Origin: Arthrobacter sp. AFG20
Lineage (GTDB): Bacteria; Actinomycetota; Actinomycetes; Actinomycetales; Micrococcaceae
DNA: 64,000 nucleotides
Assembly (NCBI RefSeq): GCF_002892795.1
Contig: NZ_PJMC01000003.1
Span: forward strand, 248,001 to 312,000
Direction: 5' to 3'
Shown piece by piece: positions 32,742 through 47,239 of this stretch. Positions within the stretch are counted from its first letter, which is position 1. Every line of letters begins with the position of its first letter. The notes under the pieces were generated by a model. It did not search any database and was not told the DNA's origin. It was given only the letters and a program-made list of their open reading frames with translations. A program made the translations under genes and the position numbers.

Positions 32742-33548
32742 ATGAGCCGGACAGAACAGCTCTACAGAACGTGGTTGGAACTTGCCGGGAGCATCCTCGA
32801 CCAACGCTGCGACAAAATGAAGCTTCCGTGGTCCGATATTGCAGATCTCCTGATTCAGTCATTCGATGCAGGATGCTGCAGTTGGAGCTGCGTCGACCTC
32901 CGCTGGGTAGACCACATGAAGGGATGCTGGCCCAAAGATTACCTGCCGAGCGAGCCACCGGGTGACCGCCCACCCGACGCAAGCTGGCAACCCCTACTGC
33001 GGTGGTACGCCCTGACAGGAGAAACCGCACCACAGACTATAGGACGCATTCCTCCTGAAGTCATTGATGCCGGGGCTTCGGCTGTTTGGAATGAGTTCGC
33101 CGACCCCATGGGCATCCGCTCACAAATCTCGATCCCACTTAATATGGGCGGCACTGGCCATCATGCGTTTGTCATCTCGAGACCAGATCAGGACTTTGGG
33201 GATGACGGCATCGCATTTGCACGGCTGCTGCAGCCACTCCTGGACGCATTCTTTGCCCAATACACGACTGCACTGCATGACAATCGCACGTCCAATGCCG
33301 CCACGTCCGCCGAACTTACGGTTCGTGAGATGGCAGTGCTCAATCTCTTGGGAAGGGGCATGACCGCGAGTTCAATCGGGCACCGCTTGGCGATTTCGCC
33401 AAGAACTGTGCAGAAACACCTCGAGCACGTCTACCGAAAACTGGATGTTGCCGACCGCCTTATGGCCGTGCAGACTGTGTTCGGCGGAGCCACCGCGCAA
33501 TGCTCATGCCGCGAACTCAATGATGGATGTTGTGAATCGACTGGCTAA
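32742..33548 (+). CDS. LuxR-type transcriptional regulator
   Basis: About 268 residues from ATG 32742; earlier in-frame starts exist but run into the LysE promoter region. The N-terminal 190 residues are of no recognised sensor type. The C-terminus has a complete LuxR helix-turn-helix: LTVREMAVLNLLGRGMTASS, then ISPRTVQKHLEHVYRKLDV. The last 16 residues (Cys-rich) look unrelated and end where the degenerate IS110 begins, so the original C-terminus may have been replaced. Confidence 0.82.
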   Translation: MSRTEQLYRTWLELAGSILDQRCDKMKLPWSDIADLLIQSFDAGCCSWSCVDLRWVDHMKGCWPKDYLPSEPPGDRPPDASWQPLLRWYALTGETAPQTIGRIPPEVIDAGASAVWNEFADPMGIRSQISIPLNMGGTGHHAFVISRPDQDFGDDGIAFARLLQPLLDAFFAQYTTALHDNRTSNAATSAELTVREMAVLNLLGRGMTASSIGHRLAISPRTVQKHLEHVYRKLDVADRLMAVQTVFGGATAQCSCRELNDGCCESTG

Positions 33549-34684
33549 AAGACTCGGACGTGGGAAGCGTTGAGGGTCACACGGGAATAGGAGTAGCTGC
33601 GACAACTCCCGGCTGGTGCCCGTTTTGGCCGCTTCCATCGAATCGACGCAGACTCACTACACTGACGCGTGGGTGGTGAGGTCATTTTTGATCGGGACAC
33701 GGCCAGCGCCGCGATTTCCAGGGCGGCTTTGAGGTAGTGGTTGCCGGGTCGGGTTTGGGTGGACTTGATTCGTCCAGCGGACTCGTTCTGGCTCGGACAC
33801 ACTCCCGCCCACGATGCCAGGTGACCCGCGGTGTCAAAGACGTTCATGTCCACGCCGGCTTCGGCGATGATGACGTTAGCGACATTCTTCGATATCCCGG
33901 GGACGGTCATCAGCAGCTCCCGGGCTAAAGAAAAAGGTTCCATCACCTTGTCGATGCGGGTGTCGAGGGCCGCGAGGGTCGCCTCGATCTGATCGATGCG
34001 GTTCAGATGCAGCTGCACCATGAAGGCGTGGTGGTCGGTGAAGCGGCCGGTGAGGGCTTCGACCAGCACCGCGGATTTGCGGCCCATCGAGGCGTGCGCC
34101 AGCGAAGCCAAGGCCCGCGGGTCACGCTCTCCGGATACGAGAGCATCGAGGATGCTGCGGGCGGATTGCGTGCCCAGCGTGCTTACCACCGAGGACAATT
34201 TGATGCCAGAGTCCTCCAGCCCTTTTTCCAGTCGTGAGTATTCTCGGGTGCGCTCATGGGTCAGGTTCGACCGCGTGCGGGTCAAATCCCGCAACTGGCG
34301 AATCGGCTCGGGCGGCACGAAACTGGCCGCCCGCAACAGATTGTGGGCGGCGAGCTCCGCCAGCCACGTCGCGTCTGAAACATCCGACTTCCTCCCTGGG
34401 ATATTCCGCGCAGCCTTCGCATTAACCAGTTGCACATTCAGCGACTCCGCCAGCAGGAAGTAAAACGGTTTCCAGTAATCACCAGTAGCCTCCATCACCA
34501 CCACCGTCACAGCAGCTGCTTCCAGATCACGGCGCAGCCGCACAATCTCGTTCATCGTCGCGCCATATGTGGTCACTGTCCTACTGGACGTTCCTGCCCG
34601 CGCTCCTGGTATCCGGATGCAAACCTTCGCATCGCGTTTGGAGATATCCATTCCTGCAGCGCGCTCGTGCACGATATCCATCAT
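33545..34684 (-). CDS. IS110-family transposase with degenerate C-terminus
   Basis: A 379-residue DEDD transposase: GMDISKRDAKVCI, VVMEATGDYW and KSDVSDATWLAELAAHNLL carry the RuvC-like acidic residues, and the C-terminal Tnp domain has TVPGISKNVANVIIAEAG and CPSQNESAGRIKS with the serine region. After ALAVSRSK the usual C-terminal tail is replaced by a short Arg/Ser-rich sequence that fits several frames, so the 3' end appears eroded by deletion and frameshift. It may be inactive. Confidence 0.85.
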   Translation of the reverse strand: MMDIVHERAAGMDISKRDAKVCIRIPGARAGTSSRTVTTYGATMNEIVRLRRDLEAAAVTVVVMEATGDYWKPFYFLLAESLNVQLVNAKAARNIPGRKSDVSDATWLAELAAHNLLRAASFVPPEPIRQLRDLTRTRSNLTHERTREYSRLEKGLEDSGIKLSSVVSTLGTQSARSILDALVSGERDPRALASLAHASMGRKSAVLVEALTGRFTDHHAFMVQLHLNRIDQIEATLAALDTRIDKVMEPFSLARELLMTVPGISKNVANVIIAEAGVDMNVFDTAGHLASWAGVCPSQNESAGRIKSTQTRPGNHYLKAALEIAALAVSRSKMTSPPTRQCSESASIRWKRPKRAPAGSCRSYSYSRVTLNASHVRVF

Positions 34685-34870
34685 CTGCTCCTTGCATCCG
34701 GGTCCAACAACACCACCGGCAGGCGGTGCCAGATGCCGCGGGAAGGGCGGGGAAAAACATTCAGGAATCTACTAAACGGGCTCATCAGACCAACACTGCT
34801 GGGCTTGCGGCACCAATCCACGGTTCCCGTGGAAGCCCTCCACACCACGCTCATAAACAGGCTCTAAGCG
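34685..34870 (-). ncRNA. Candidate bridge-RNA region of the IS110 element
   Basis: IS110-group elements are known to encode a structured bridge RNA in the noncoding stretch before the transposase. Here that stretch is about 186 nt, contains the hairpin-forming CTTCCACGG/CCGTGGA, and lies directly upstream of the ATG. Only position and length support the call; loops were not identified. Confidence 0.25.
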
Positions 34871-35342
34871 CTAAGACACCTCGGCGTCGACCGCGGCACT
34901 GCCATCATCCGCCGCTACCCAAGCCAGCCACAAGGCCGTTTTCTCAAACCCCCAACGCCGCGAAGCGGCTCCACAGCTCGTAACTAACGATGGATACACC
35001 GATTTCACTGAAGGTTGCGAGACATAGTAACGAGAACGCCCCAGCTGGACGGCAGCCGGGCAGGCTCGCAAAAAATGGATTGCGCAGGCCAGCTACCAAA
35101 TTGCTCAGTGAGACGCCTTGCATCCCAAGGGTTGTGTGACAAATGGAGACGCCGCCGGAGAGCCCTGGCAAGGGCCCAGGGCCGATGGTGTTTCCGGCGT
35201 GCCCTGCGAACATCCGCGTGGAACCCGCTTGCCAATGACATCAATCCATATCCGGCCGAAGTGATGAAACGCCAGATCGAACTACGCGAAACGCACCGAA
35301 CTGTTCCTGCCTGGGTTACTGAACCAACGCAGCGATGACCTG
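34871..35342. other. Stretch without recognisable gene
   Basis: A plus-strand frame at 35015-35338 ends in a plausible segment (PYPAEVMKRQIELRETHR) but its first half is Arg-rich and unconvincing. It may be the tail of a gene destroyed when the IS110 element arrived. Confidence 0.35.
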
Positions 35343-35678
35343 TCACATGTGGGCACGGACACTACTGTGGCCGGAGAGGCGGGAGAGCCCCGCCCCTGAA
35401 AGAAAGTTGCTGCTGCCGTTGCGGATTGCTGCGGCTTGAGTGGCACGGAACCTGGGTTGCATCTGCTCACCGCTGTGGCCGGTGCTCTGATCCCGGACTA
35501 AGCCAGTGCCGGCGATCTCCCGGACAAGGGCTATGGCCGCTGCTACTGCCCGTTTCGTGGCAAACGTCTCCGAGGAGGTCGCCCACGTGGTCCCGGAAGA
35601 ATCCACCAGTCTGAACCGGTAGCCGCCGTCGGGAGACGAGAAGACTTCGAATTGACCGGACATGGCAGTCTGCTCCAT
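35343..35678 (-). CDS. DUF1508 (YegP-like) protein
   Basis: A 111-residue protein; AAGGGGGAG precedes ATG 35678. Residues 7-60 are one DUF1508 unit: GQFEVFSSPDGGYRFRLVDS, then SSETFATKRAVAAAIALVRE. The family is small, basic and of unknown function, often stress-related. About 45 extra residues at the C-terminus have low complexity and may be read-through. Confidence 0.8.
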   Translation of the reverse strand: MEQTAMSGQFEVFSSPDGGYRFRLVDSSGTTWATSSETFATKRAVAAAIALVREIAGTGLVRDQSTGHSGEQMQPRFRATQAAAIRNGSSNFLSGAGLSRLSGHSSVRAHM

Positions 35679-36041
35679 CTCTCCCCCTTGGGAGTGACGA
35701 TCAACGAAACCCGGCCCCGGTTGAGCATCGGCAGTCACAAGGTCACACCTCGATCCAAGACCAAGCCCGGATCCACAAGGTGATGTCCTGCTGCAGGAAG
35801 CCGCCCGCGGGCGTTGTTGCGCTGGAACAATGAGGACGGGTTCTGCATACCGTCTGGAGGCAAATATCCTAACCACGGCAGTAGGTCCTTGAAAAGCCGC
35901 CGCCACCTCGAGCACAAGCACACCCCAAGACGGCTCCCGAGGCCAAGGCCCAGAGACAGGGCCGCACGACCTGCCTGGCCAAGCAACCCCGCGGGCGGCG
36001 GCAGCCGCCGCGGGAAGGGCCGTCCCGTGAGGCCGAAAGTG
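35679..36041. other. Intergenic stretch
   Basis: Long Arg/Pro-rich open frames here are composition artefacts on both strands. No gene, repeat or RNA recognised. Confidence 0.4.
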
Positions 36042-36182
36042 TCAGCCGCGGAGCGAGATCTCGGAAAACGAGATCTCGGGGAGGGACTCATCATCGGCCG
36101 CAACCCATGCGGTGAAGTCTGCGTACGACATAAAAGAGTAGTAGTCACAGAACCTCGCACCCGCTCGTTCATACGTGCCCAC
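36042..36182 (-). CDS. Small acidic protein (46 aa)
   Basis: GTG 36182 lies 11 nt behind a near-perfect Shine-Dalgarno (AAAGGAGGAG). The 46-residue product begins MGTYERAGARFCDYYSFMSY, continues ADFTAWVAADDE and ends with a duplicated element EISFSEIS. It has normal composition with many aromatic residues, unlike the overlapping Arg-rich frames. The DNA repeat CGAGATCTCG (twice, 36054-36078) is explained by this duplicated peptide. Family unknown. Confidence 0.5.
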   Translation of the reverse strand: MGTYERAGARFCDYYSFMSYADFTAWVAADDESLPEISFSEISLRG

Positions 36183-36404
36183 GCTGGTTGGTACTCCTCC
36201 TTTCTTAACCGTCTAATCCTTAAAACCGACATTGCGGATTGCGCATTCCCACTGAAGCGAAGCGAGACCGAACGCTGGGAGGACCGAAGGGCTCCCAGCG
36301 CCGGAGGAACCCGTGCGGCCGAGCCCAGGCTGGCGCTACTCCCGGTGACCGCCCTTCCATTGCTCGACGCGTCTACCGTGAGCGCCTACGGGCGGGAAAC
36401 TGTC

Positions 36405-36455
36405 TTGCCAGCGCGTGGTGCCGGTGCTATTAAATCTATGTCAGCGGATATAGAT
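36405..36455 (+). promoter_or_regulatory. Stress promoter 1 with 22-bp near-palindromic operator
   Basis: TTGCCA (36405-36410), 17 bp ending in GTGC, TATTAA (36428-36433), then directly the operator 36434-36455 of the form ATCTAT-N10-ATAGAT. Same architecture as the promoters at 38926 and 41985. It precedes the 106-aa gene and the FMN reductase and protease genes. 36183-36404 has no gene. Confidence 0.75.
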
Positions 36456-36566
36456 TGACGTGGTCCTGGGTCACGCCGGGAAAGCAGCATACTTCGCACC
36501 ACAACCGTATTGCCCGTTTCGCCAGGACATGGCCGTCCTGGTGCATCCCGAATGGAGGCAAAGACA

Positions 36567-36887
36567 ATGACGATCCAGTACATGGACGACGGGTTCGCTC
36601 CCCATGTTGACCGGGGCCTGGCAGCGGCCAGGGCGCGTCTTGATTCCGGGGCTGCGGGCCGGGACCAGGGCGGGGAGGCGGAGAGGCACTCCCGGGCTAT
36701 GGTGGAACACATTCTCGCCCTGGAACCCGAACGCGTCCCTGCCGTCACGGCTGAACTGTTCGCCGAGGCCATCGCCGTAGCCAACGCTGTCCGGCAATCC
36801 CAAGGAAGAGGACCTGTTACGTCTTTCCGTGCCAGGGACTTTTGGGAGATTTTGAAGGATCTGGTTGACAGCGTGTTGGAGCAGTAG
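36567..36887 (+). CDS. Hypothetical stress-island protein (106 aa)
   Basis: ATG 36567 with GGAGG eight bases upstream. The protein is alpha-helical and acidic: HVDRGLAAARARLDSG, then HSRAMVEHILALEPERVPAV, then FRARDFWEILKDLVDSVLEQ. No family recognised. It is the first gene after stress promoter 1, so it probably belongs to the same regulon as the Hsp20 genes. Confidence 0.65.
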   Translation: MTIQYMDDGFAPHVDRGLAAARARLDSGAAGRDQGGEAERHSRAMVEHILALEPERVPAVTAELFAEAIAVANAVRQSQGRGPVTSFRARDFWEILKDLVDSVLEQ

Positions 36888-37034
36888 CCGCATCAGTCCT
36901 GTACCGGAGTACCGGCCCGCTTGGCCGGCGGGGTTCGCGGCGAAGCGCCGCGTTCGCCGAACGGTGTTCTCGCTCCGAACGTAGCACGTGCTGGCGTAAG
37001 GCGTTGGAGAAGGTTATTGAAGGGAGTGGTTTGC

Positions 37035-37592
37035 GTGGTGAAGATTGCTGTGGTGGTGGGCAGCACCCGGCCGGGCCGGCGGAGCAAGCAGGTGGCTGAC
37101 TGGGTGCTGGCCAGGGCAACCGCCCGGGGCGGTGCTGACTTCGAGATGCTGGACCTGGCTGATTACGACCTGCCTCTGTTGGACGAACCGATGCCGCCGT
37201 CCCTGGGCAAGTACCAGCACGAACACACCAAGTTCTGGGCGGCCACGATCGCCCGGTTCGACGGGTTCATCTTCGTCACGGCCGAATACAACCACTCCGT
37301 GCCCGGGGTCCTGAAGAACGCCTTGGATTATCTTTACGAGGAATGGAACAACAAGGCCGCCGGCTTTGTCTCCTACGGCAGCGCCGGTGGAGTCCGTGCG
37401 GCAGAAAACCTGCGCCTGATCGCCGGTGAACTCCAAATGGCCGACGTCCGAGCCCAGGTGGCGTTGCCCTTTGCCACGGACTTCGAAAACTTCACCACGT
37501 TCACGCCCAGCACCGCCGCGGAAGAAGCCCTGGAACCACTCCTGCAGCAGCTCATTGCCTGGGCAACAGCGCTTAAAACGCTCCGCACCTAA
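37035..37592 (+). CDS. NAD(P)H-dependent FMN reductase
   Basis: A 185-residue flavodoxin-fold reductase starting at GTG 37035 (GAAGGGAG upstream). FMN phosphate loop GSTRPGRRSKQVADW, and the family motifs FVTAEYNHSVPGVLKNALDYLY and FVSYGSAGGVRAAENLR. Members reduce FMN, quinones or azo dyes with NAD(P)H. In the stress island it may defend against quinones or oxidants (inference). Confidence 0.92.
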   Translation: MVKIAVVVGSTRPGRRSKQVADWVLARATARGGADFEMLDLADYDLPLLDEPMPPSLGKYQHEHTKFWAATIARFDGFIFVTAEYNHSVPGVLKNALDYLYEEWNNKAAGFVSYGSAGGVRAAENLRLIAGELQMADVRAQVALPFATDFENFTTFTPSTAAEEALEPLLQQLIAWATALKTLRT

Positions 37593-37645
37593 TGCTGAGG
37601 AGGTGCGCCGGGCGGCACAGGCCCCGTAAGAGAGAGGAATATCCA

Positions 37646-38803
37646 ATGCACCCCCGGAAACCGTCACGCCGCGTCTCCCGCGTGGGCGGGATGGCGTGCG
37701 CGGCAGCGGTACTCGCAGCGATCCTGTCCGGATGCACGGCTCCCGGCCAGGCCCCGGCTGCGTCATCACCGCAGCCGTCCGGCAGCGCCACAGGCAGCCC
37801 ATTAGGGAGTGCTTCAGGTGGTGCACCAGGGGGCGGGGTCTCGCCGGGCCAGCCGTCCCAGGCGCCATCATCACCGGCACAGGGCGGCCCGGGGACCGGT
37901 CAAGGGCCGGTTGATATTCCCACGATTGTCAGCAACGTCCAGCCATCTGTCGTGACCGTCTTCACCGACGGCGGGCTGGGAAGCGGCGTGGTGTATTCGA
38001 AGGACGGGCTGATCCTCACCAACGAGCACGTGGTGCGCGGAAACCGCGCTGTGGAGGTGGGCTTCGCCGATGGCCGCCGGGTAGCCGGAACGGTACGGGC
38101 AATGGACCCCATCTCGGACCTTGCCTTGGTGGAGGCAAAGCGGACAGGCCTCCCTGCCGCCAAATTCCAGCCTGCCCTGCCCCGCATCGGCGAGCTCGCC
38201 GTCGTGATCGGTTCACCGCTCGGGTTTGAGAACACGGCGACGGCCGGCATCATCTCGGGCCTGCACCGGCAGATCCCGGGGTCTGCGTCCAGCAGCCAGT
38301 CCCTGGTAGACCTCATCCAAACCGATGCCGCGATCAGCCCCGGCAACTCCGGCGGCGCAGTCGTGAACAGCAGGGGCGAAGTGGTCGGGATCAGCGAGGC
38401 CTACATACCCCCGCAGTCCGGGGCCGTGGCACTCGGCTTCGCCATCCCGGCCGCCACCGCGGTAAAGGTAGCCGACCAACTCCGTGCGGACGGAACCGCC
38501 GAGCACTCCTTCATCGGCCTGGGACTGGGCGAGATCACCCAGCAGATCGCCGAAGAACTGGGGCTGCCGGACACCCGCGGGGCGCTGGCACTCACGGTCC
38601 AGGAAGGCGGCCCCGCAGACAAGGCCGGTATCCGGCCCGGTGACGTCCTCACCAGACTCGACGGCGACGAGCTCGCATCCCCCGAGGACCTGCTCGCCGC
38701 GCTGAGAAGCAAAAGCCCCGGCCAAACAGTCACCGTCGAATTCCGTCGAGGAACGGCCCGGCAAGAGGTCAAAGTTCCGCTTGCAGCACGCCCTGCCTCA
38801 TAG
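37646..38803 (+). CDS. HtrA/DegP-type serine protease lipoprotein with PDZ domain
   Basis: About 385 residues; AGAGAGG precedes ATG 37646. A lipobox LSGC after a hydrophobic segment anchors it outside the membrane; a Ser/Pro/Gly linker follows. Trypsin-fold triad: His in LTNEHVVRG, Asp in ISDLALVEA, Ser in SPGNSGGAVV. The C-terminal PDZ domain includes VQEGGPADKAGIRPGDVL. HtrA proteases degrade or refold damaged envelope proteins under heat and oxidative stress. It lies between the two Hsp20 promoters, close behind the FMN reductase. Confidence 0.93.
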   Translation: MHPRKPSRRVSRVGGMACAAAVLAAILSGCTAPGQAPAASSPQPSGSATGSPLGSASGGAPGGGVSPGQPSQAPSSPAQGGPGTGQGPVDIPTIVSNVQPSVVTVFTDGGLGSGVVYSKDGLILTNEHVVRGNRAVEVGFADGRRVAGTVRAMDPISDLALVEAKRTGLPAAKFQPALPRIGELAVVIGSPLGFENTATAGIISGLHRQIPGSASSSQSLVDLIQTDAAISPGNSGGAVVNSRGEVVGISEAYIPPQSGAVALGFAIPAATAVKVADQLRADGTAEHSFIGLGLGEITQQIAEELGLPDTRGALALTVQEGGPADKAGIRPGDVLTRLDGDELASPEDLLAALRSKSPGQTVTVEFRRGTARQEVKVPLAARPAS

Positions 38804-38925
38804 CCCCTCCACTGGCGGCCCCACCCCGCGGGCCCATCAAGGCGCCAACCGAATCCTGTTGGACTGACCGTGCTGCTCCCCCGGCAACCCCGGCTACGGC
38901 GGCGGAGTTTCACCGTCCCAACCTC

Positions 38926-38976
38926 TTGCCAATGGTTAACGGAAGTGGTAGAAAATCTGTATCAACGGATATAGAT
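38926..38976 (+). promoter_or_regulatory. Stress promoter 2 with operator, upstream of hsp20
   Basis: TTGCCA (38926-38931), 17 bp, TAGAAA (38949-38954), operator 38955-38976 of the form ATCTGT-N10-ATAGAT. The right half GGATATAGAT is identical to promoters 1 and 3. The operator starts exactly at the base after the -10, so a bound protein would cover the start site. Confidence 0.75.
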
Positions 38977-39010
38977 CCGACCCAGTCAATGATGATCAAG
39001 GAGGCATGTC

Positions 39011-39436
39011 ATGTTGATGATGAGCGATCCCTTCCGCCAGCTGGACCGGCTTGCCCAGCAGGTCTTCGGCACGGCCGCACACCCGGCCGCCATGCCACTG
39101 GATGCCTGGCGGGAGGACAGCGAGTTTGTGATCGCGGTCGACCTGCCCGGCGTGGACGTGAACTCAATCGACGTCGACATCGAGCGGAACGTCCTGACCG
39201 TGAAGGCTGAACGGAAGAACACCGCCCCCGAAGGGGCCGAACTGGTGGCCGCTGAGCGGCCGCAGGGCGTCTTCAGCCGGCAGCTGGTCCTGGGCGAGGC
39301 GTTGGATGCCGAGAACGTGACCGCCGGATACGACGGCGGGGTGCTGACCCTGCGTATCCCGGTCGCTGCCAAGGCACAGCCACGAAAGATCGAAATCACC
39401 AGCGGCCAGGGCGCCCAGCAGCAGATCAGTGCCTAA
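39011..39436 (+). CDS. Small heat-shock protein (Hsp20 family), copy 1
   Basis: 141 residues; AAGGAGG lies six bases before ATG 39011. Alpha-crystallin domain: [43 protein letters not shown] and the conserved GVLTLRIPV near the C-terminus. It forms ATP-independent holdase oligomers that bind unfolding proteins. It is a close paralogue of the copy at 41459-41884, and both have the same promoter/operator type. Confidence 0.95.
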
Positions 39437-39553
39437 CCGGCAGCGAGGGACGCCGAACCGCCCAGGCTGTTTCAGGGCGGCTGGCCTTCAGCGATGAACG
39501 CCGGTGCGTCTTTCGCGCAGAGGCAGGAACAGCAGGCCAGGGGTCCCCTCCCC

Positions 39554-39594
39554 GGCGCGGTCCCCGGTACCACCGATGACCCGGGGACCGCGCC
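39554..39594 (+). terminator. Terminator after hsp20
   Basis: Perfect 14-bp stem GGCGCGGTCCCCGG with a 13-nt loop, 118 bp after the hsp20 stop and before the next gene. Confidence 0.65.
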
Positions 39595-39651
39595 ATTACA
39601 CGACGAAGGTGCACACCCCCAGACAATGAGGAGGACGGGAGACTCGCTGCA

Positions 39652-40428
39652 ATGCCAGTCACACGCAACGTGGCCTGGGACAGGCGTTTGGAATCCTTCA
39701 AGGGCAGGGACACGACACAGTACGTGCTCACGGCTGCCTCCATGGCCCGGACGTGCGCCGCCCGCCGGGGGACCCTTGAGACCGGTGAGCCGCTCTCACT
39801 GCTGGTAAACGTCACGGAAAGCACCGCACCGGACGGAACCAGTTACGTCACCTTCACCGACTGCGTCTGCCACCGCCGCTGCAGTGATCCCGGGCTGAGT
39901 GTCCAGCACAGCCAGTGGGCGCCAAACAAACTCACCCCCATGGCCGCACGGATGGTCCTCCCCCGGCAGTCCGGCGACGGACAGGAACACCCAGTGCCGG
40001 TGCTGGCCTACACGCTGGTCCCGGTCGTGGCTTTTCGGGAGAACGACGGCGACCTGACCTCCGCCCTCGTCTCGATCCTGCTCTTCCACGGCTTCCAATT
40101 GGCCATGAGCCCGGACTTCGGCGACATCCTGGAAGACGCCGTCGAAACGTCAGCCAGCTGCAGCTTCGCCGTGACACCTCAGGGCCTGATCACCCTCAGC
40201 ATCGGCGACAGAACCCTGTTCGGGGAACAGCTCCACCAGGATGAACCCAACGACGCGCTGTGGCTCAAGGCCGCCCGCGGCGGCCATGTCCTGGTCATCA
40301 GCGGGGACAACCTCATCATCACCACCAATGGCCTCGACATCCGTCATGCAGCAGCGCAGGGAACACTGGTCATCGGCACCGTCCCCGTCCCCGTCCGCCC
40401 ACAGGCCATCGACCCCCTGCCCCGCTGA
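39652..40428 (+). CDS. Hypothetical protein (258 aa)
   Basis: ATG 39652 follows GAGGACGGGAG. The protein is soluble, without signal peptide or clear transmembrane segments; a Cys pair in TDCVCHRRCSD could bind metal. Later segments (VLAYTLVPVVAFRENDGDLT, CSFAVTPQGLITLSIGDRTL) look like beta-sheet domains. I know no family for it. Its place among heat-shock genes suggests a stress role. Confidence 0.65.
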   Translation: MPVTRNVAWDRRLESFKGRDTTQYVLTAASMARTCAARRGTLETGEPLSLLVNVTESTAPDGTSYVTFTDCVCHRRCSDPGLSVQHSQWAPNKLTPMAARMVLPRQSGDGQEHPVPVLAYTLVPVVAFRENDGDLTSALVSILLFHGFQLAMSPDFGDILEDAVETSASCSFAVTPQGLITLSIGDRTLFGEQLHQDEPNDALWLKAARGGHVLVISGDNLIITTNGLDIRHAAAQGTLVIGTVPVPVRPQAIDPLPR

Positions 40429-40478
40429 TACCAAGGTACGTGCTCGCCCAACGGGACAGAAACTACTCCACCAGCAAG

Positions 40479-40868
40479 CTACTCCGCGAGCGGAGGCGGG
40501 CCGAAGAGGAATTCGTTGGCGTGCGACACGGCTTTGCGGAATGCGTCATTCCGAAGCGCCACGAGGTGTTCGCTGTCATCCTTGCCGGGCTCAAGGAAGC
40601 CGGTAAAGCCCGGGCGAAGCACCCAGATATCCCCGGCGGGCGGCAGGTAGAACACCGCAAAGGAACGGTGCTGGCGGTCGTCGTCGGTCCAGATGGGCAC
40701 CACGGCCAGGGCCGCCCCGGTTGCTGGGTTGATCCATTGTGCGCGGGGCAGCGGCTCCTCATAGGCCTCGGGGTCCAGGAACGGGGCTGTGCCCTTGCCC
40801 CAACGCTGCTCGAAACGCTCATGGAAGGCCGGGATCAGATGTGAATCGTAGCGGCGCCAGTCGCTCAT
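40479..40868 (-). CDS. Hypothetical protein next to a DnaJ gene (129 aa)
   Basis: ATG 40868 with AGGAGA upstream. Soluble, aromatic-rich protein: MSDWRRYDSHLIPAFHERFE, later FAVFYLPPAGDIWVLRPGF. No family recognised. The J-domain gene ends 36 bp upstream of its start, so the two are likely co-transcribed with Hsp20 copy 2. Confidence 0.65.
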   Translation of the reverse strand: MSDWRRYDSHLIPAFHERFEQRWGKGTAPFLDPEAYEEPLPRAQWINPATGAALAVVPIWTDDDRQHRSFAVFYLPPAGDIWVLRPGFTGFLEPGKDDSEHLVALRNDAFRKAVSHANEFLFGPPPLAE

Positions 40869-40904
40869 CGGGGTAGTTCTCCTCTGGATCTGTTGCATGT
40901 GTTG

Positions 40905-41330
40905 TTACGCCCACGGTCCGCTCTCCCACCTGACGGCAGTGGCGCGCAGTGGCGGCTCCCGGCGCCGGACCACGCGGACCGGAATATCTTGCGGACTGCT
41001 GCCGTTCCGCCTTCCGGCGCTCCGGCTGGTGCCCTGGCCGCTCTCTTCCGAACGTCCCGGCCGGTTGTCCTCCGCCGGTGGATCACCGGGCCCTGTCCGG
41101 GAGGCTTCCCGGTCGTAGGCGTGGCGGCGCTTGGGGTCACGGAGCACGGCGAAGGCCTGCATGATCAGCTGCAGTTCGGCAGGCGCGGCCCCCTCCCCGG
41201 CAACATCGGGGCCGGCAAGATCGGGGTGGTGCCGGCGCATGAGAGAGCGGTAGGCGCGCGCAATTTCCTGTGGCGAAGCGCCACGGGAAACATGCAGGAC
41301 CGCGTAGTAGTCCGGGACAGGTCTGGCCAT
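40905..41330 (-). CDS. DnaJ-domain protein
   Basis: 141 residues. An N-terminal J domain with DYYAVLHVSRGASPQEI and the HPD tripeptide in RRHHPDL; helix IV ends in DPKRRHAYD. The rest is Gly/Ser/Arg-rich and basic, without the zinc or substrate-binding domains of full DnaJ, so it is a type III J protein that may recruit DnaK to specific clients. It lies between Hsp20 copy 2 and a gene of unknown function. Confidence 0.9.
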   Translation of the reverse strand: MARPVPDYYAVLHVSRGASPQEIARAYRSLMRRHHPDLAGPDVAGEGAAPAELQLIMQAFAVLRDPKRRHAYDREASRTGPGDPPAEDNRPGRSEESGQGTSRSAGRRNGSSPQDIPVRVVRRREPPLRATAVRWESGPWA

Positions 41331-41458
41331 CTGAAGCCTGTTGCTGCTGCAGGATTGTGCTGGTCGTTTGCGGTTGCCGGTGGCAGCGGTCCGGGGCGGC
41401 CTCCGGCAGACACCCGAAGGCAGGAACCGGAGGCCGCCCCGTCAACCGCATCGAAGGG

Positions 41459-41884
41459 CTACGTCTCGATCTGGTGCTGCTGGCCTTTGCTTTCGATCTC
41501 GATCTTGCGCGGCTTTGCCTGCTCGGCGACCGGGATCCGCAGCGTCAGCACGCCGACGTCGTAACTCGCCTTGATGTTCTCCGCGTCCAGCGTGTCGCCA
41601 AGGATAAGCTGCCGGCTGAAGACGCCGCGCGGCCGCTCGGAGACCACCAGCTCCACGTTGGGCTGGGTGGCGTCCCGGCGCTCCGCCCGCACAGTGAGGA
41701 CGTTCCTCTCAACATTCAGGTCCACGGCGTCGGGCGAAATCCCGGGCAGGTCAAACGCCACCACAAATTCCCCGTCTTCCTGCCACGCGTCCATCGGCAT
41801 CGCCGCCGGACGGGCCGCTGTTCCGAAGACCTGCTGGGTGAGCCGGTCCAGCTCACGGAACGGATCAGTACGGATAAGCATCAT
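41459..41884 (-). CDS. Small heat-shock protein (Hsp20 family), copy 2
   Basis: 141 residues, aligned end to end with copy 1: [48 protein letters not shown] and GVLTLRIPV. It is transcribed divergently from the HspR-like MerR gene, and the shared intergenic region carries stress promoter 3. It probably leads a short operon with the J-domain gene and the gene at 40479. Confidence 0.95.
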
Positions 41885-41932
41885 TTCCCACTCCCTTCAG
41901 CATCTAGGTTTCGTCGCTACCCACCGCCGCAC

Positions 41933-41985
41933 ATCTGTGACGGTGGATATAGATTTCTTATAGCACTGGTGACAAACTGGTGCAA
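41933..41985 (-). promoter_or_regulatory. Stress promoter 3 with operator, between hsp20 copy 2 and the MerR gene
   Basis: On the minus strand TTGCAC (41985-41980), 17 bp ending GTGC, TATAAG (41962-41957), then two bases and the operator 41954-41933 (ATCTAT-N10-ACAGAT on this strand). It lies 49 bp before hsp20 and 62 bp before the MerR start, so one operator may control both directions, including autoregulation. Confidence 0.75.
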
Positions 41986-42016
41986 GAGGAAATCAGAGCG
42001 AATTGACGGGAAACTC

Positions 42017-42328
42017 GTGGCAAAACAACGCAGCAGCGGGCGCGGGCTGTACGCCATTTCGGTGGTGGCGGAACTCCTGGGGACGGGTCAGCAAAACATC
42101 CGGCTCTATGAACGCCGCGGCCTGCTCACCCCGGAACGGACCGAGGGCGGCACCCGCCAGTACAGTGAATCCGACCTTGCCGTCCTGCGCCGGATCGGAG
42201 AGCTTCTGGACGAAGGGCTCAACCTGGCCGGTGTAGCCAAGGTACTGGAACTGGAAGTGGACAACGCCCGGCTGCGGCGCCAGTTAAAGCGCGCCCGAAG
42301 CGCCCGCCCGGACGACAACGGCATGTGA
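42017..42328 (+). CDS. HspR-like MerR-family regulator
   Basis: A 103-residue protein with GTG start at 42017. The MerR helix-turn-helix and wing LYAISVVAELLGTGQQNIRL followed by YERRGLLTPERTEGGTRQYS resemble HspR, the actinobacterial repressor of dnaK and other chaperone genes; a short coiled coil LELEVDNARLRRQLKRA ends the protein. It lacks the longer tail of typical HspR. Divergence from hsp20 and the shared operator make it the best candidate to control the 22-bp sites in this island. Classical HspR binds another repeat (HAIR), so its specificity would be new. Confidence 0.88.
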   Translation: MAKQRSSGRGLYAISVVAELLGTGQQNIRLYERRGLLTPERTEGGTRQYSESDLAVLRRIGELLDEGLNLAGVAKVLELEVDNARLRRQLKRARSARPDDNGM

Positions 42329-42355
42329 AGCAGCCAAAACCCTCGCGCGGCCTAA

Positions 42356-42385
42356 GGCCGACTGCCTGCGAGCAGGCAGTCGGCC
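42356..42385. terminator. Bidirectional terminator
   Basis: Perfect 13-bp stem GGCCGACTGCCTG with loop CGAG, 28 bp after the MerR stop and facing the end of the minus-strand gene at 42444. Confidence 0.7.
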
Positions 42386-42443
42386 ACAGCCACCCCGAAC
42401 AGTCCCGTACGCCACACATCGTTCCGGGACGCCTTCTCCGCTT

Positions 42444-42692
42444 CTAGGACAGGCCTGCAATCCCGGGCTGCTTCCAGGACGGTTCCCGCCCGGGGATGTT
42501 CCGGCTGAGTAGATCCAGCAGTTCCCCCTGGTCCAGGCCGGTCGCCTCGCTGACCTCGGCAAGGGTGGCATCCCCGGTGCGCAGCAGCGCGGTCGCGGAT
42601 TCCCGCAGCGTCCGGCATGCCACCTCCAGGGTGGTTTCGGCGGTTGCTATGACCGCCGCCAGCGCCCGCAGCCTCTGAAGTTCTGGGTTCAT
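42444..42692 (-). CDS. Small hypothetical protein with possible helix-turn-helix (82 aa)
   Basis: From ATG 42692. Helical: LQRLRALAAVIATAETTLEV and RTGDATLAEVSEATGLDQGE, the second resembling a helix-turn-helix. A longer frame runs back to 42779 but crosses the tRNA fragment. It is the first gene behind stress promoter 4, so it is likely a further regulon member. Confidence 0.55.
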   Translation of the reverse strand: MNPELQRLRALAAVIATAETTLEVACRTLRESATALLRTGDATLAEVSEATGLDQGELLDLLSRNIPGREPSWKQPGIAGLS

Positions 42693-42754
42693 TTTCGCAT
42701 CACCGCCCCTTCGTCTGGACCCCGCGGACCAGGAGCCGGTGGAATGATCCGGCG

Positions 42755-42791
42755 TGCACCCGGTGGGGCTCGAACCCACGACCCGAGGACC
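42755..42791 (-). pseudogene. 3' fragment of a tRNA gene
   Basis: On the minus strand GTGGGTTCGAGCCCCAC forms a perfect T-arm, followed by CGGGTGCA, a tRNA acceptor 3' strand with discriminator base. The complementary 5' acceptor GCACCCG is absent upstream, where stress promoter 4 sits instead. Such 3' tRNA fragments are typical leftovers at integration sites. Isotype cannot be told. Confidence 0.6.
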
Positions 42792-42826
42792 ATAGATTTT
42801 TTAGCACTGCCGCAGCGCGGACGCAA
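42792..42826 (-). promoter_or_regulatory. Stress promoter 4 with half operator
   Basis: On the minus strand TTGCGT (42826-42821), 17 bp ending GTGC, TAAAAA (42803-42798), then ATCTAT (42797-42792), the same arrangement as promoters 1-3. The right half of the operator is replaced by the tRNA fragment. It points toward the gene at 42444-42692. Confidence 0.6.
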
Positions 42827-43410
42827 GAACCATTGACCTGGCGAAGAGAGTTCGTCCCGGCGACACCGCTGCAGGTGAGGGTCGAGTTTGGAAGCCACCT
42901 CCCAGGAGATAAGCTGCGCCGTCGGAAACCGCCCGGGGATGTACGCAGTGATGTCGGCAGGACCAGCCTCGGACTAGAACTCGCGACAGGCCTTGGCGCT
43001 GCGCTGACTCCGGGAATTAGCTCCTGGCGAGATGCCAAGATCTCCTGCAGCTCAGACTCCCCCGCGTAGCCTGCATCGGCTATGCCAGCCAAGACCCGTC
43101 GCTCTGCCGAATGAGTATCCCACTCATGCTTACCGACCTTTCGATGGGAGCCGTGGGTGATCCCGCTGGCTTTGACTGGGACGATTCCCGCGGGCGATGC
43201 CTGATCTGTTCCGAGTGAGGGGCCAATGGCGCGGGCGGAGGTGGAAGGCCGGTGAAAGGCAGGAGTCAGCGCTGGATTCTGTTGCAGGGGCCGAAGGATC
43301 GGCATTGCGCGGACTTACTAACCCCTCCCAGGGGTCATTGAGTTGGGAGTTCCCGGGCGGCAGGAAGTGAAGGCGCCCCCGGGGCAATCCTTGGAGCAAG
43401 AATTCCTGAC
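42827..43410. other. Stretch without recognisable gene
   Basis: About 580 bp. The open frames are Arg/Pro/Ser-rich and mutually antisense. A minus-strand piece around 43000-43120 (ERRVLAGIADAGYAGESELQ) has normal composition but no start, end or family. Confidence 0.4.
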
Positions 43411-43815
43411 TTACTCACCGCCATCATCGGATTTCTTGCTTTCTCCGGGGGCAACCTGCCCCTGTTCCTGCTCGCCGGGGCGCTGATCGCTGGCTCCTCT
43501 GGTGGGCTCGTAGCCGGGGACGTCCGGATGTTCTCCGTCTTCGCCCGGTCCGGCGGTCGTGTCGAGCTCGTCGGCGTAGGGTGCGCGAAGGCGGGGCACA
43601 GCGTCGATGAGTTCGTTGGCGGCCATTGCCAGCAGGTCCCGCTGGGCCTCGGGGAGGGACAACAGGCCTTGCAGGTAGGCCTCGACCTCGTACTCCCCGA
43701 CGGTGCCGCCGATGCTGAAATAGTTCAGCCATAGCTCTGCCGGGGTGATGTCGGAGGCTTTCAGCGCAGCGCGGAGCTGGCGCCGCTGAGCGGGTTCATA
43801 GGGATCGAAGCCCAT
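43411..43815 (-). CDS. Hypothetical acidic protein (134 aa)
   Basis: Begins MGFDPYEPAQRRQLRAALKA; residues 1-85 are helical with the pattern ITPAELWLNYFSIGGTVGEYEVEAYLQGL, split here only for description, and the C-terminal 45 residues are disordered and acidic. It is probably co-transcribed with the GAF-ANTAR gene 11 bp upstream. No function assigned. Confidence 0.65.
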   Translation of the reverse strand: MGFDPYEPAQRRQLRAALKASDITPAELWLNYFSIGGTVGEYEVEAYLQGLLSLPEAQRDLLAMAANELIDAVPRLRAPYADELDTTAGPGEDGEHPDVPGYEPTRGASDQRPGEQEQGQVAPGESKKSDDGGE

Positions 43816-43826
43816 GACGTCCGCCG

Positions 43827-44546
43827 TCAGTCCCGGTGCGCCGGCGTTCCGGCGATGAGTTCGGCGCTGATCTGCTTGGGGCTGCTGCCGGTTTCCCGGG
43901 CGCGGTCCATGAGGTGCTGCAGGGCCTGCTCATGGTTCAGCCCCTGGCGTTCCATCAGGATTCCACAGGCGCGGTTGATGGTGTCCCGGTGGTGCAGGGC
44001 CATTTGCAGGCTCTCGCTGATGCGCTTCGGCGCCTCGCTGGTCTGGATGTGGGAGAGCAGCGTTGCGGCCGGGGCGGCGAACTGCTCCAGCAGCCGCCCG
44101 GTGTCCGCGCCATAGGCGGAGGGAAGCGGTGAGTAGATTTTCAGCGCCCCCAGGCATTCCTTGCCGGAGATGAGCGGTGCGCTGACGACCGAGCGGACGG
44201 GCAGGGCGGCGACTGCGGCGCTCCACTGGGGCCAGCGCGGATCCGTCTGGACGTCCTCGATGAGGATTGTTTCCTCGGCAGCCCAAGCTGTCAGGCAAGG
44301 GCCTTGTCCGAGCTGGTACTGCAGGGCATCTGCCTGTTTGACGATATGGTCGGTAAATCCTGCGCTGGTCCGGCGGCCCCGGGCATTCAAGAGCGACACC
44401 CCGGCTCCTACGGTTCCGGGGATGGCATCCTTGATGGCCCGGGCCAGGAGCTGAACGGCGCGGTCGACTTTTTCTTCGGTGAGGAGCAGGCCCTTGATCC
44501 GGCCAATAGCCGTGGAAAGTTCATCAAGGGAAAGTCTTGGTTCCAT
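43827..44546 (-). CDS. GAF-ANTAR RNA-binding regulator, copy 1
   Basis: 239 residues from ATG 44546 (GGAGGAAT upstream). GAF domain (about 20-165): AGVSLLNARGRRTSAGFTD, then QYQLGQGPCLTAWAAEETIL, then SVVSAPLISGKECLGALKIY. C-terminal ANTAR three-helix domain: HRDTINRACGILMERQGLNH with the conserved Ala/Gly and Gln pattern. ANTAR proteins bind paired RNA hairpins to prevent termination; the GAF domain senses a small molecule or redox signal. Confidence 0.9.
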   Translation of the reverse strand: MEPRLSLDELSTAIGRIKGLLLTEEKVDRAVQLLARAIKDAIPGTVGAGVSLLNARGRRTSAGFTDHIVKQADALQYQLGQGPCLTAWAAEETILIEDVQTDPRWPQWSAAVAALPVRSVVSAPLISGKECLGALKIYSPLPSAYGADTGRLLEQFAAPAATLLSHIQTSEAPKRISESLQMALHHRDTINRACGILMERQGLNHEQALQHLMDRARETGSSPKQISAELIAGTPAHRD

Positions 44547-45040
44547 GAGGATTCCTCCGGTCGTGTCCGGGCGAGCAGCCTCGGGACGGTGCGGGGAAAG
44601 CCACCGCGCACAAAACCATGCGCCATCTTCAGCATAACCCTCACAGCCTTGACCGTGCGGTGGAAATCCGGCCGTTGCCGCCATGGCCACCACCTTGAAG
44701 CTCAGTGGCCGGGGCCGCGGGTGCCGCCCCCGGAGTCGTTGCCGAGGGCAGCGTCCCGGATGGTGATGGAGTGGCTGCGGCGCAGAACGGAATCAGGGCC
44801 CCGGTCCCAGAGGCCGAATTCGGGCTCCTGGGGAGCCCAAACCAGGGGCTCCACAATCCCCGCCGCGACGTTAGGGGCAGTGCCGGCAGCTTGTCCTCGG
44901 CCCGCGCTGTGCTAATTGGCTGGTTCTTTGCCTGAGCCTGCGACGTAGACTTCAAAGTAGTCCAGACACGTGGACCAGAGTCCTTTACGAAAGGGCTATG
45001 CCCTTCAGGGATTGCTGCCAGGGCAAAGCAGGAAGAGGCC
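44547..45040. other. Spacer between divergent GAF-ANTAR genes, with possible 50-codon frame at 44702-44854
   Basis: The minus strand holds GTG 44854 opening 50 codons (MEPLVWAPQEPEFGLWDRG...) with GC-ending codons and a stop at 44702. It could be a small gene or a remnant tail. No terminator or RNA motif is clear otherwise. Confidence 0.3.
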
Positions 45041-45781
45041 ATGATGACCACAGAGGAACCTCGCATCGACACTGTCGCCGAACATCTTCAGGACCTTGTG
45101 CTCGGCTGCGCGGACGTCGAGGACCTCCTCACCGAACTTGCCGTTTTTTCGGCGATGAGCCTCTCCGTCCAACACCGGCTCCTGGCCAGTGTCACCTTGC
45201 TGCGGCATAAGAAGGCCACCACTGTGGCCTGCAGCGATTCAAAGGCAGTTGCCCTGGATGAGATTCAATACGGGTTCGGCGACGGCCCTTGCCTCACAGC
45301 CATCCGCGACATGGACATCGTGCACATACCGGACCTCAGCCACGAAACAAGATGGCCGGAATACTCCGCTGCGGCACGGGATCAGGGGATCGGTTCGATC
45401 CTGTCCGTGCCGATGCCCCTGGAAGGGGAAGCGAAGGCGGGACTGAACCTGTACTCCACGGATCCCCATGCCTTCCGCGGCGAAGACATCGAAGAAGCCG
45501 AGGCGTACAGCGGTCAGGCTTCCAAGGCGCTGCGCCTGGCCGTGAGGATCGCCCAGCTCATCGATACCCGCAACAACATGACCGCTGCGATGCAATCGCG
45601 CACCACGATCGATCTGGCAGCGGGAGCGATCATGGCACAAAACCATTGCACCCAAGAGGCCGCGATGAAAATCCTCAAGATCGCTTCCAGCAGCCGCAAT
45701 GTCAAGCTAAGGGACGTCGCCGCGTCCGTGGTTGCCTCCATATCGCAGGACCCCGCGGTCCTCACGCACTTCGACGAATGA
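45041..45781 (+). CDS. GAF-ANTAR RNA-binding regulator, copy 2
   Basis: 246 residues. GAF domain with ALDEIQYGFGDGPCLTAIRD and SILSVPMPLEGEAKAGLNLY; ANTAR domain with MQSRTTIDLAAGAIMAQNHC, then AMKILKIASSSRNVKLRDVA. It differs clearly from copy 1 in sequence and lies divergent to it. It probably acts on terminators of distant stress or nitrogen genes. Confidence 0.9.
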   Translation: MMTTEEPRIDTVAEHLQDLVLGCADVEDLLTELAVFSAMSLSVQHRLLASVTLLRHKKATTVACSDSKAVALDEIQYGFGDGPCLTAIRDMDIVHIPDLSHETRWPEYSAAARDQGIGSILSVPMPLEGEAKAGLNLYSTDPHAFRGEDIEEAEAYSGQASKALRLAVRIAQLIDTRNNMTAAMQSRTTIDLAAGAIMAQNHCTQEAAMKILKIASSSRNVKLRDVAASVVASISQDPAVLTHFDE

Positions 45782-45894
45782 CCTGGAACTGCGATTAGCC
45801 GCCATACTCCTCAACAATCACAGCCACCACCGGATCGACAGTCGCAGTATCGGGCCGGTGGTGTTCGGCCACACTCCGGTTCGTTCCTTTGCGG

Positions 45895-46470
45895 CTATTC
45901 GGTGTGTCGTCCTGTCAGCTTATCCAGCAGCCGGTCCACCATGCCGACGCCTGGGCCCACAGTCTTGTGGAACAGCTCAGAGTGGGGGGCGCTCGGGTGC
46001 GGTCGGGTCGGCGCGGCTTTTTTGGCGTTCTGGACTTTTTCTCCCATCTCCACGAGCTTCTCATGGGGGATGTGCGAGCGTAGTTTGGGGAACTGCTCAG
46101 TTTCCTCATCGTTGGCGTGGTGGCTCAACTGTGCCTGCAACTGCCCGATCAATTCCAGGAACTCCGAGGCGGAGGGGTCCACGCCTTCGATTCGCTTCAT
46201 CAACTTGACGATCTCGTCGTGCTCTTTCTTATCGTGTTCGACTTCCTCGGCGCCGTTGGGCACGTGGTCTTCAACGGCCGGGTAGACGAACATTTCCTCC
46301 GCTACGGCATGGCGCATCACTTCGGCGATCAACGTGTCAGCTATGTCTCGGCGCTGTCCGGCCTCGGGCGTGTGCTCAATCTGGCCGATCAGTTCAATCA
46401 TCTCCCGGTGGTCCGCGGTCAGGATGTCAACGACATCAGAGTTCGTCCCGTGAGTGTTGGTCTCGGTCAT
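45895..46470 (-). CDS. Hemerythrin-like (HHE) domain protein
   Basis: 191 residues; AAGGAGG precedes ATG 46470. Four-helix HHE domain with metal-binding His/Glu in ILTADHREMIELIG, MRHAVAEEMFVYPAVEDHV, EHDKKEHDEIVKLM and LSHHANDEETEQFPKLR. The C-terminal 45 residues are flexible and end in GMVDRLLDKLTGR. Such proteins bind a di-iron centre and respond to oxygen, NO or oxidants. Confidence 0.92.
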   Translation of the reverse strand: MTETNTHGTNSDVVDILTADHREMIELIGQIEHTPEAGQRRDIADTLIAEVMRHAVAEEMFVYPAVEDHVPNGAEEVEHDKKEHDEIVKLMKRIEGVDPSASEFLELIGQLQAQLSHHANDEETEQFPKLRSHIPHEKLVEMGEKVQNAKKAAPTRPHPSAPHSELFHKTVGPGVGMVDRLLDKLTGRHTE

Positions 46471-47035
46471 GGCCGGATCCTCCTTCGGATCTTGGATATT
46501 CGGCGCCGCTAAGAGGGCCCAACGTACCATCGGGCATCCAGGATGGCTATGGATTTTATCCGCAGGCCCAGCTGCACAGGGACCGTGAAGACAGCCCGCC
46601 CCAGGCGCGTGGTCAGGCTTTTCCTTCAGTCTGTGACTCTTGACCGAGAATAGCGGATAAGCCGAGGGTTGAAATGGCAGCTACAGGGACGCACTTATGT
46701 CTCGGAACCCTACGGTTACGAGACGTTCTGATTCCTACCCCGACGTTCTGAATACGCCCTTTCCCGAAGCTACTTAGAACCACTACGTAGTCGTCAGCTG
46801 CACCGGGACTGCCAGGTGAAATTTGCTGAAAGTGGTGAAACCGGTGAATCTTTCCCAACCTGGCAGCAAGGGCTACGAATCTTTGTGTTCGTGCCCTCAA
46901 AACGCCTTGTGAATTTCAGTGCATCTTGTGAGTTTGGTGAGTCTTGTGAGTCGATAGCTGAATATGGCAGATTATCGTTGGCGGGCCTCAGTGTAGGCTG
47001 CTTCCGCTTCCCGCACGGAAGGCTACATTCGCGGC
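46471..47035. other. AT-richer leader region of cspA
   Basis: No gene. The last 200 bp are less GC-rich and carry repeats of CTTGTGA and GGTGA (46830-46955). Cold-shock genes often have long structured leaders, so the last 100-200 bp may be the cspA 5' untranslated region. Confidence 0.4.
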
Positions 47036-47239
47036 ATGGCAACAGGCACGGTCAAGTGGTTCAATGCGGAAAAGGGCTTCGGCTTCATCACCCCGGATGA
47101 CGGTGGGAAGGATGTATTCGCGCACTATTCCTCGATATCCGGCCGCGGTTACCGCTCACTGGAAGAGAACCAGAAGGTTACTTTCGAAGTCGAGCAGGGC
47201 CCGAAGGGACCGCAGGCGCAGAACATCACCACGCTCTAG
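47036..47239 (+). CDS. cspA: Cold-shock protein
   Basis: A 67-residue OB-fold protein: [20 protein letters not shown] and [10 protein letters not shown] contain the RNP1 and RNP2 motifs, and [18 protein letters not shown] closes the barrel. It binds single-stranded RNA/DNA and melts RNA structure. It closes the stress island and has a long gene-free leader. Confidence 0.97.

Follow-up and report, generated by a model that had tools for sequence, protein, structure and literature searches.

A small MerR-family regulator and a 22-bp palindrome, distinct from HspR and its operator, appear to switch small heat-shock chaperone genes in soil actinobacteria and their relatives

Results

A chaperone island with three promoter-linked palindromes

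We analysed a 64,000-nt stretch of the Arthrobacter sp. AFG20 genome (the window), of which ∼36.4–42.8 kb constitutes a chaperone island. Its subject here is a 22-bp palindrome that occurs three times in the island, before genes that include two hsp20 copies, and a small merR gene that adjoins the third copy. Genes for a 106-amino-acid (aa) protein, a flavin mononucleotide (FMN) reductase, an HtrA-type protease, Hsp20 (copy a) and a 258-aa protein lie on the + strand, followed by p129, dnaJ and hsp20b on the − strand, merR on the + strand and a gene for an 82-aa protein on the − strand. The features are listed below with their basis; E-values for operators are those of profile R1, described further on, over the whole own genome. 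The 82-aa gene and its upstream DNA are listed separately.

36405–36433, +: promoter 1, TTGCCA (36405–36410), 17 bp, TGc-TATTAA (36428–36433); sequence reading
36434–36455, +: candidate operator 1, ATCTATGTCAGCGGATATAGAT; pattern scan, R1 E=3.2e-5
36567–36887, +: 106-aa protein, first gene past operator 1, function unassigned
37038–37592, +: NADPH-dependent FMN reductase; PF03358, E=1.6e-42
37646–38803, +: HtrA-type serine protease with PDZ domain; family matches
38926–38954, +: promoter 2, TTGCCA (38926–38931), 17 bp, TGg-TAGAAA (38949–38954); sequence reading
38955–38976, +: candidate operator 2, ATCTGTATCAACGGATATAGAT; pattern scan, R1 E=5.6e-3
39011–39436, +: hsp20 gene a; PF00011, E=9.6e-21
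39652–40428, +: 258-aa protein, no family match
40479–40868, −: 129-aa protein (p129), third gene of the hsp20-dnaJ-p129 operon; in 68 of 80 named loci
40905–41330, −: J-domain protein (dnaJ), second gene of the operon; PF00226, E=7.6e-16; in 70 of 80 named loci
41459–41884, −: hsp20 gene b, first gene of the operon; PF00011, E=2.3e-22
41933–41954, −: candidate operator 3, between hsp20b and merR; pattern scan, R1 E=1.4e-7
41957–41985, −: promoter 3, towards hsp20b, TTGCAC (41985–41980), 17 bp, TGc-TATAAG (41962–41957); sequence reading
42017–42328, +: merR, GTG start assumed; winged helix-turn-helix and dimerisation helix; PF13411, E=1.4e-20

An earlier, sequence-only reading of this DNA had reported three palindromes of the form ATCTRT-N10-ATAGAT, beginning at 36434, 38955 and 41933. 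All three matched that pattern with 0 mismatches. The promoter pattern that it had described, TTGC at −35, a 17-bp spacer and GTGC or GTGG before the −10, could likewise be read in each case, and the GTGC or GTGG corresponds to an extended −10 (TGn). The palindromes indeed lie directly behind the −10, with a gap of 0 nt at operators 1 and 2 and of 2 nt at operator 3. The GGATATAGAT half adjoins the −10 in promoter 3 and is the far half in promoters 1 and 2, as a palindrome permits. According to Pfam and NCBIfam, the genes behind the three sites are those named in that reading, the 106-aa gene and two HSP20 proteins, and family matches also agreed with its HtrA-type protease and J-domain protein. 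The 106-aa protein itself had no Pfam or NCBIfam match; three further Arthrobacter genomes encode homologs of it close to hsp20 genes that stand behind such an operator. The predicted model of p129 was of low confidence (predicted local distance difference test, pLDDT, 70) and had no significant match among solved folds.

Scanning both strands of the window at up to 2 mismatches returned 6 matches, which are the same three places, with 0.95 expected; none of 100 shuffles of the window reached 6. The 4.9-Mb own genome contains only 4 perfect palindromes. Three are those of the window and the fourth (C19:37485) is flanked by a further copy of the hsp20-dnaJ-p129 operon and one of merR, the latter 92% identical to the window merR.

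The promoter geometry recurs beyond this genome. Among 118 distinct units, a TTG −35 and a −10 spaced by 17–19 bp were found in 112, and by 17–18 bp in 110, where the −10 was chosen by its match to TGnTATAAT. The −10 was extended in 102 units, and the operator starts 0–3 bp past the −10 across the set. Arthrobacter merR-hsp20 intergenic regions also carry a conserved CAGTnT..CAC stretch in the spacer of the hsp20 promoter, as at window 41957–41985. We did not see it in promoters 1 and 2, which have no divergent partner, and it could be the −10 for merR on the other strand.

Two further observations concern the surroundings of the island. An IS110-family transposase gene (33545–34684, −) lies ∼1.7 kb ahead of it, and genes for two GAF-ANTAR proteins adjoin it (43827–44546, −, and 45041–45781, +).

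The palindrome accompanies a MerR subfamily across the class

Orthologs of the window MerR were found in 39 of 120 family genomes (E<=1e-15) and in 114 of 121 genus genomes (E<=1e-20). In a sample of 296 genomes of the class, at least 65 of the matches listed scored at least 104 bits, one of which (G210) was later classed as canonical HspR; the remaining matches listed scored ∼90–103 bits and included canonical HspR. The system is spread over many families of the class, beyond the island of the window.

We retained 80 of 326 named loci. An operator with at most 1 mismatch occurred within 400 bp upstream of merR in 75 of these, and the order p129-dnaJ-hsp20, divergent from merR, was preserved in 56, with variants of it in most of the others. 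The exact pattern ATCTRY-N10-RYAGAT was present 52 times in the 80 loci, as compared with 0–1 times in 30 draws of permuted palindromes. A broader set comprised 170 subfamily loci, omitting three duplicates (L120, L121, L130). It holds 9 genomes twice, leaving 161 distinct loci; those truncated by contig ends were scored as misses. Upstream of merR, the palindrome was found with at most 1 mismatch within 400 bp in 127 of the 161 (0 mismatches to ATCTRY-N10-RYAGAT in 73, 1 in 54, 2 in 16 and at least 3 in 18). Shuffled upstream regions yielded such a site in 15 of 3400 cases.

Loci were assigned to the subfamily or to canonical HspR according to the higher-scoring of two queries, by which L233, fetched as subfamily, became canonical. 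An hsp20 gene was the divergent neighbour of merR in 150 of the 161 distinct subfamily loci and of none of 29 canonical hspR genes. None of the latter had a 0–1-mismatch palindrome upstream, but this half of the comparison is weak, and counts against our interpretation, since hspR is preceded by coding DNA in 29/29 loci. Fisher tests on the 170-locus table, in which relatedness is ignored, gave 4e-17 for the operator and 1e-25 for hsp20.

The gene and the site also co-occurred by genome. At cut-offs of E<=0.05 for the site and E<=1e-20 for the gene, 112 of the 121 genus genomes had both, 2 the gene only, 1 the site only and 6 neither. All 20 family genomes with a site at E<=1e-3 were among the 39 with merR; none of the 81 without merR had one.

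Sites away from merR mostly precede hsp20 genes

For profile R1, which spans 38 nt, we used 36 sites adjoining merR in other genomes and none from the own genome. In the own genome it ranked the four perfect sites first (E 8.8e-10, 1.4e-7, 3.2e-5 and 5.6e-3); the next place had E=0.33. The sequence-only reading had looked to a matrix scan of related genomes for sites that cluster before chaperone genes and co-occur with this MerR subfamily. The matches did both, clustering before hsp20. Of 28 strong sites read with no intact merR adjoining, 24 precede an intact hsp20 and 2 a broken one. Eight are from the family (E<=1.4e-3), with 7 before an intact hsp20 and 1 before p129 beside a merR fragment. 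The other 20, from the sites listed for the genus, include 17 before an intact hsp20, 2 before a broken hsp20 (L275 and L277, the match in L277 covering only the first half of the gene) and 1 before the gene for a 434-aa protein. The intact hsp20 genes behind the 17 genus sites start 73–88 nt from the match start. Given the sites read away from merR, the regulon would consist chiefly of hsp20 copies, with J-domain and p129 genes behind one, and of small island proteins.

The regulator is a relative of HspR

The description of the regulator as an HspR-like MerR stood, with a refinement. A small MerR gene does face hsp20b at operator 3, but the tree and the C-terminal tail make its product better named a relative of HspR than HspR. 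Membership of the MerR superfamily is clear from the match to PF13411 and from a confident predicted model (pLDDT 88.7), which comprises a winged helix-turn-helix, a recognition helix at residues 24–32 and a dimerisation helix, with no sensor domain. The best solved matches to the model were DNA complexes of GlnR (top) and TnrA; a CbpM/J-domain complex also matched. Against the NCBIfam HspR family, NF047375, the window MerR scored 87.2 bits (E=5.3e-25), below the cut-off of 105 bits.

In a tree of 137 of 190 distinct sequences (91 columns; named Arthrobacter thinned), the 29 canonical HspR proteins formed one side of a branch with support of 100/99; the bootstrap overall had yet to converge. 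A hydrophobic C-terminal tail of the LVVWRP type was found in none of 169 complete subfamily proteins versus 15 of 20 canonical HspR proteins, and a slightly stricter motif in 0/169 versus 5/8. The subfamily gene is divergent to hsp20 (150 of the 161 distinct loci), not part of a dnaK-grpE-dnaJ operon. The operator, too, is unlike that of HspR, as had been claimed: no subfamily upstream region among the 170 came within 3 mismatches of the HspR-associated inverted repeat (HAIR), and just 1 of the 170 did so for the CIRCE element of the HrcA regulon.

On a different contig, the own genome also encodes a canonical HspR (C3:78350), 38% identical to the window MerR. The gene lies ∼4 kb from the start of dnaK, which is preceded by two HAIR-like sites with 2 mismatches each. 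Only these two appear meaningful, because HAIR at up to 2 mismatches occurs at 10 places in this genome versus 20 for the reversed pattern. HspR/HAIR and the MerR system described here coexist in this genome.

Operator letters vary with the recognition helix

Counts of helix and operator were obtained from the 166 of 170 loci that were usable. Recognition helices that end in RVYE pair with ACCTGTATC-N4-GGTTACAGGT: C occupies operator position 2 in 11/15 such loci versus 18/151 others. Helices with DPQS pair with a right half of CTAGAT, and C occupies position 17 in 8/9 of these versus 1/157. The pair with the helix MEQHNLRQYE has a differently lettered site in the same place. Judged from these counts, the letters of the predicted operator vary with the recognition helix of the MerR, providing a natural series of helix/operator pairs from which to learn the specificity of MerR-type regulators.

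A tRNA-Lys(UUU) gene behind the operator

The last gene of the island encodes the 82-aa protein. It and related arrangements in other genomes are as follows.

42444–42692, −: 82-aa protein gene; homologs in 7 of 121 genus genomes
42754–42789, −: 3′ part of tRNA-Lys(UUU), fused to the left operator half by deletion; alignment with L194 and L195
42790–42826, −: broken promoter/operator unit of the 82-aa gene, TTGCGT (42826–42821), 17 bp, TAAAAA (42803–42798), left half ATCTATGG; aligned to the intact L194 unit
L194 1812–1884, −, and L195 1812–1885, −: tRNA-Lys(UUU)
L196 1277–1426, +: tRNA-Gln and tRNA-Lys, located between an operator with an hsp20 remnant and the 82-aa gene

At L194 and L195, a complete tRNA-Lys(UUU), scoring 61 and 70 bits with Rfam, stands between an operator unit and the 82-aa gene. 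At L198, an operator with 1 mismatch directly precedes the 82-aa gene, with no tRNA. ARAGORN detected no complete tRNA in the window, and alignment of the window to L194 and L195 revealed that everything from mid-operator to mid-tRNA is missing. By this alignment, the window copy is a deletion relic that kept the promoter, the left operator half, the 3′ part of the tRNA and the 82-aa gene. We dropped a reading of 42754–42789 as a tRNA attachment site, since L194 and L195 have the intact order of promoter, operator, tRNA-Lys and 82-aa gene. The occurrence of tRNA-Lys(UUU) genes behind an hsp20-type operator suggests stress-controlled tRNA, and touches on an earlier report, mentioned in PMC2687793, that Streptomyces coelicolor HspR binds a tRNA-Gln/Glu cluster.

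The system on plasmids

The 22 letters of operator 1 recur identically before hsp20 in the Arthrobacter plasmid pSI-1 (L202) and in L184, as well as in L056, where they lie 2.3 kb from merR. Plasmid StoSoilB13-1 carries the whole operon with a perfect operator, and a Mycobacterium intracellulare plasmid carries divergent hsp20 and merR genes with a two-mismatch site. The same gene pair is found on Rhodococcus opacus pKNR and R. jostii pRHL1, which had no site at up to 1 mismatch; another palindrome is readable there. Matches on Stenotrophomonas maltophilia and Actinomyces oris plasmids were set aside for their canonical-type helix-turn-helix, that of A. oris also lying in a dnaK operon. Matches on pYLL2 and a Tsukamurella plasmid were set aside as well, as neither annotation nor matching revealed an hsp20 next to them.

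Several of these plasmids yielded observations of their own. On pYLL2 (L305, 786–2471), the subfamily merR has a perfect operator ∼270 bp upstream, which lies near two small genes and a gene for a SigB/F/G-type sigma factor. GAF-ANTAR genes, as beside the window island, also occur near hsp20 on pSI-1 and on the M. intracellulare plasmid. A conjugative plasmid of Arthrobacter FW306-05-C (L201) carries dnaK-grpE-dnaJ-cbpM-clpB together with genes for a trypsin-like protease, a mechanosensitive channel and FtsH. Its sole place within 1 mismatch of the operator falls within a coding gene. In content, this plasmid appears to be the actinobacterial equivalent of the stress-tolerance islands of proteobacteria discussed below.

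Discussion

Proposed mechanism and its alternatives

We consider it very probable that the palindrome is the operator of the adjoining MerR, a small, tail-less protein that would act as a dimer, with no ligand domain, to repress hsp20 and a few companion genes. Because the operator begins 0–3 bp past the extended −10, a bound dimer would cover the transcription start and thereby block RNA polymerase. Because it would also border the divergent merR on its upstream side, the same dimer probably regulates its own gene too. Stress would release the repressor from the DNA, allowing expression of the hsp20-dnaJ-p129 operon and of unlinked hsp20 copies. The sensor could be the MerR itself, through intrinsic heat lability, or a co-encoded feedback partner, either the J-domain protein or Hsp20. 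With neither a DnaK-linked hydrophobic tail nor a ligand domain in the MerR, these are the likelier candidates.

Several results weigh against this interpretation. At up to 2 mismatches, the own genome holds 28/24 places versus 12/9 for the reversed pattern, such that most 2-mismatch places may be noise. The sites behind R1 were preselected at up to 1 mismatch to the pattern of the sequence-only reading, and some of the family and genus genomes scanned had donated sites to the profile. Weak R1 matches (E 0.03–0.33; G096:C24, G009:C11:262759, G006:C8 and G000:C48) were not before hsp20 in the stretches read. The co-occurrence of site and gene owes much to their physical linkage, and 34 of the 161 distinct loci have at least 2 mismatches. 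Five loci had no recognisable site: L144 and L206, which keep a divergent hsp20, and L216, L219 and L221, which do not. In L029 and L032 a site stands at the right place but is differently lettered. Genome by genome, G425 and G106 have merR with no site at E<=0.05, the G106 gene being without its start, while G466 has a site before hsp20 with no merR at E<=1e-20 and G050 a site and an hsp20 operon with no merR at the cut-off. Finally, the tests of helix against operator ignore phylogeny; RVYE is essentially one clade, so the associations are clade-level and not independent events.

G466 and G050 would fit a scheme in which the palindrome belongs to an unlinked repressor and the adjoining MerR controls other things or is a bystander. 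Another regulator of hsp20 has a precedent in RheA, which controls hsp18 in Streptomyces albus according to PMC2687793. We nonetheless judge this unlikely: the operator follows the subfamily through many families and to plasmids (StoSoilB13-1 and that of M. intracellulare), changes its letters together with the recognition helix and is also missing from 6 of the 7 genus genomes that lack merR. As HspR is the closest named family, the regulator might instead be an ordinary, DnaK-dependent HspR paralog whose operator has diverged. The sub-threshold score against NF047375 and the separate clade speak against such a paralog, as do the consistent absence of the tail motif, the divergent orientation to hsp20 and the lack of HAIR, and we regard it as quite improbable.

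Membership of the MerR superfamily also raises the question of classical activation, in which the MerR would underwind a long-spaced promoter; 70 of the 118 units can in fact also be read as TTG, a 19-bp spacer and a hexamer directly before the operator. However, the spacer is 17–18 bp, rather than 19–20 bp, in 110 of the 118, and the stretch from −35 to −10 does not contain the operator, which follows the −10. A promoter with an extended −10 and 17–18-bp spacing should work without an activator, and with the operator over the expected start this favours steric repression; we attach little probability to activation. The conserved sequence could, by reasoning, also form an RNA hairpin close to the transcript start, so that it would be a promoter or RNA element, such as a sigma-factor motif or a hairpin in the 5′ untranslated region, and not an operator. 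Its symmetry, the change of both halves in the RVYE clade and its presence before unrelated genes (hsp20, the 106-aa gene and a tRNA) make this very improbable, and a scan of window 34000–48000 found no Rfam family at its cut-off.

A wider possibility is one that we advance tentatively and with some doubt. The pair may constitute a further actinomycete heat-shock circuit beside HspR/HAIR and HrcA/CIRCE: a DnaK-independent, tail-less MerR whose operator co-evolves with its helix, which moves together with chaperone islands, chromosomal and plasmid-borne alike, and which, in some Arthrobacter, drives a stress-inducible tRNA-Lys(UUU) and the 82-aa protein.

Comparison with known systems

In the literature searched, with subscription papers and motif databases outside its scope, we recognised no description of this regulator or operator. 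GlnR and TnrA of Firmicutes and HiNmlR are its best structural matches, sharing the MerR-type DNA-binding domain; HiNmlR is moreover described as having no sensor domain. GlnR and TnrA respond to a partner protein, and the functions and operators of all three differ from those of the window MerR. None is known to be linked to chaperone genes.

The HspR/HAIR system of Streptomyces, Mycobacterium and Helicobacter is similar in that its regulator is small, has a MerR-family DNA-binding domain and no ligand domain, and is linked to chaperone genes. It differs in its operator (CTTGAG... versus ATCTAT... here), in its clade, in its tail and in the location of hspR in the dnaK operon, whereas merR is divergent to hsp20. 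HspR also controls the Hsp20 gene acr2 in M. tuberculosis, as stated in PMC8223512, and a title cited there indicates that the hydrophobic tail of HspR mediates its dependence on DnaK. In Helicobacter, the J-domain protein CbpA binds HspR (PMC4063869). RheA, which in the actinomycete S. albus is dedicated to repressing a small heat-shock gene, hsp18, is comparable to the present system in this respect (PMC2687793). RheA is, by its description in a title cited there, a thermosensing repressor of another kind, and it is by this description that we set it apart.

A proteobacterial mobile island (PMC8290217) also combines a MerR-like first gene with hsp20; compared by description only, it differs in its core, dna-hsp20-clpG, and in its hosts, the beta- and gamma-proteobacteria. 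How actinobacteria regulate hsp20 is not fully settled; bifidobacteria provide an example, as their hsp20 promoter yielded no consensus motif (PMC9004370). A MerR/operator pair other than HspR/HAIR appears to switch these genes in soil actinobacteria, as well as in related members of many families across the class. As a widespread candidate repressor with a defined 22-bp operator, found on plasmids in exact or variant forms, the pair is directly testable.

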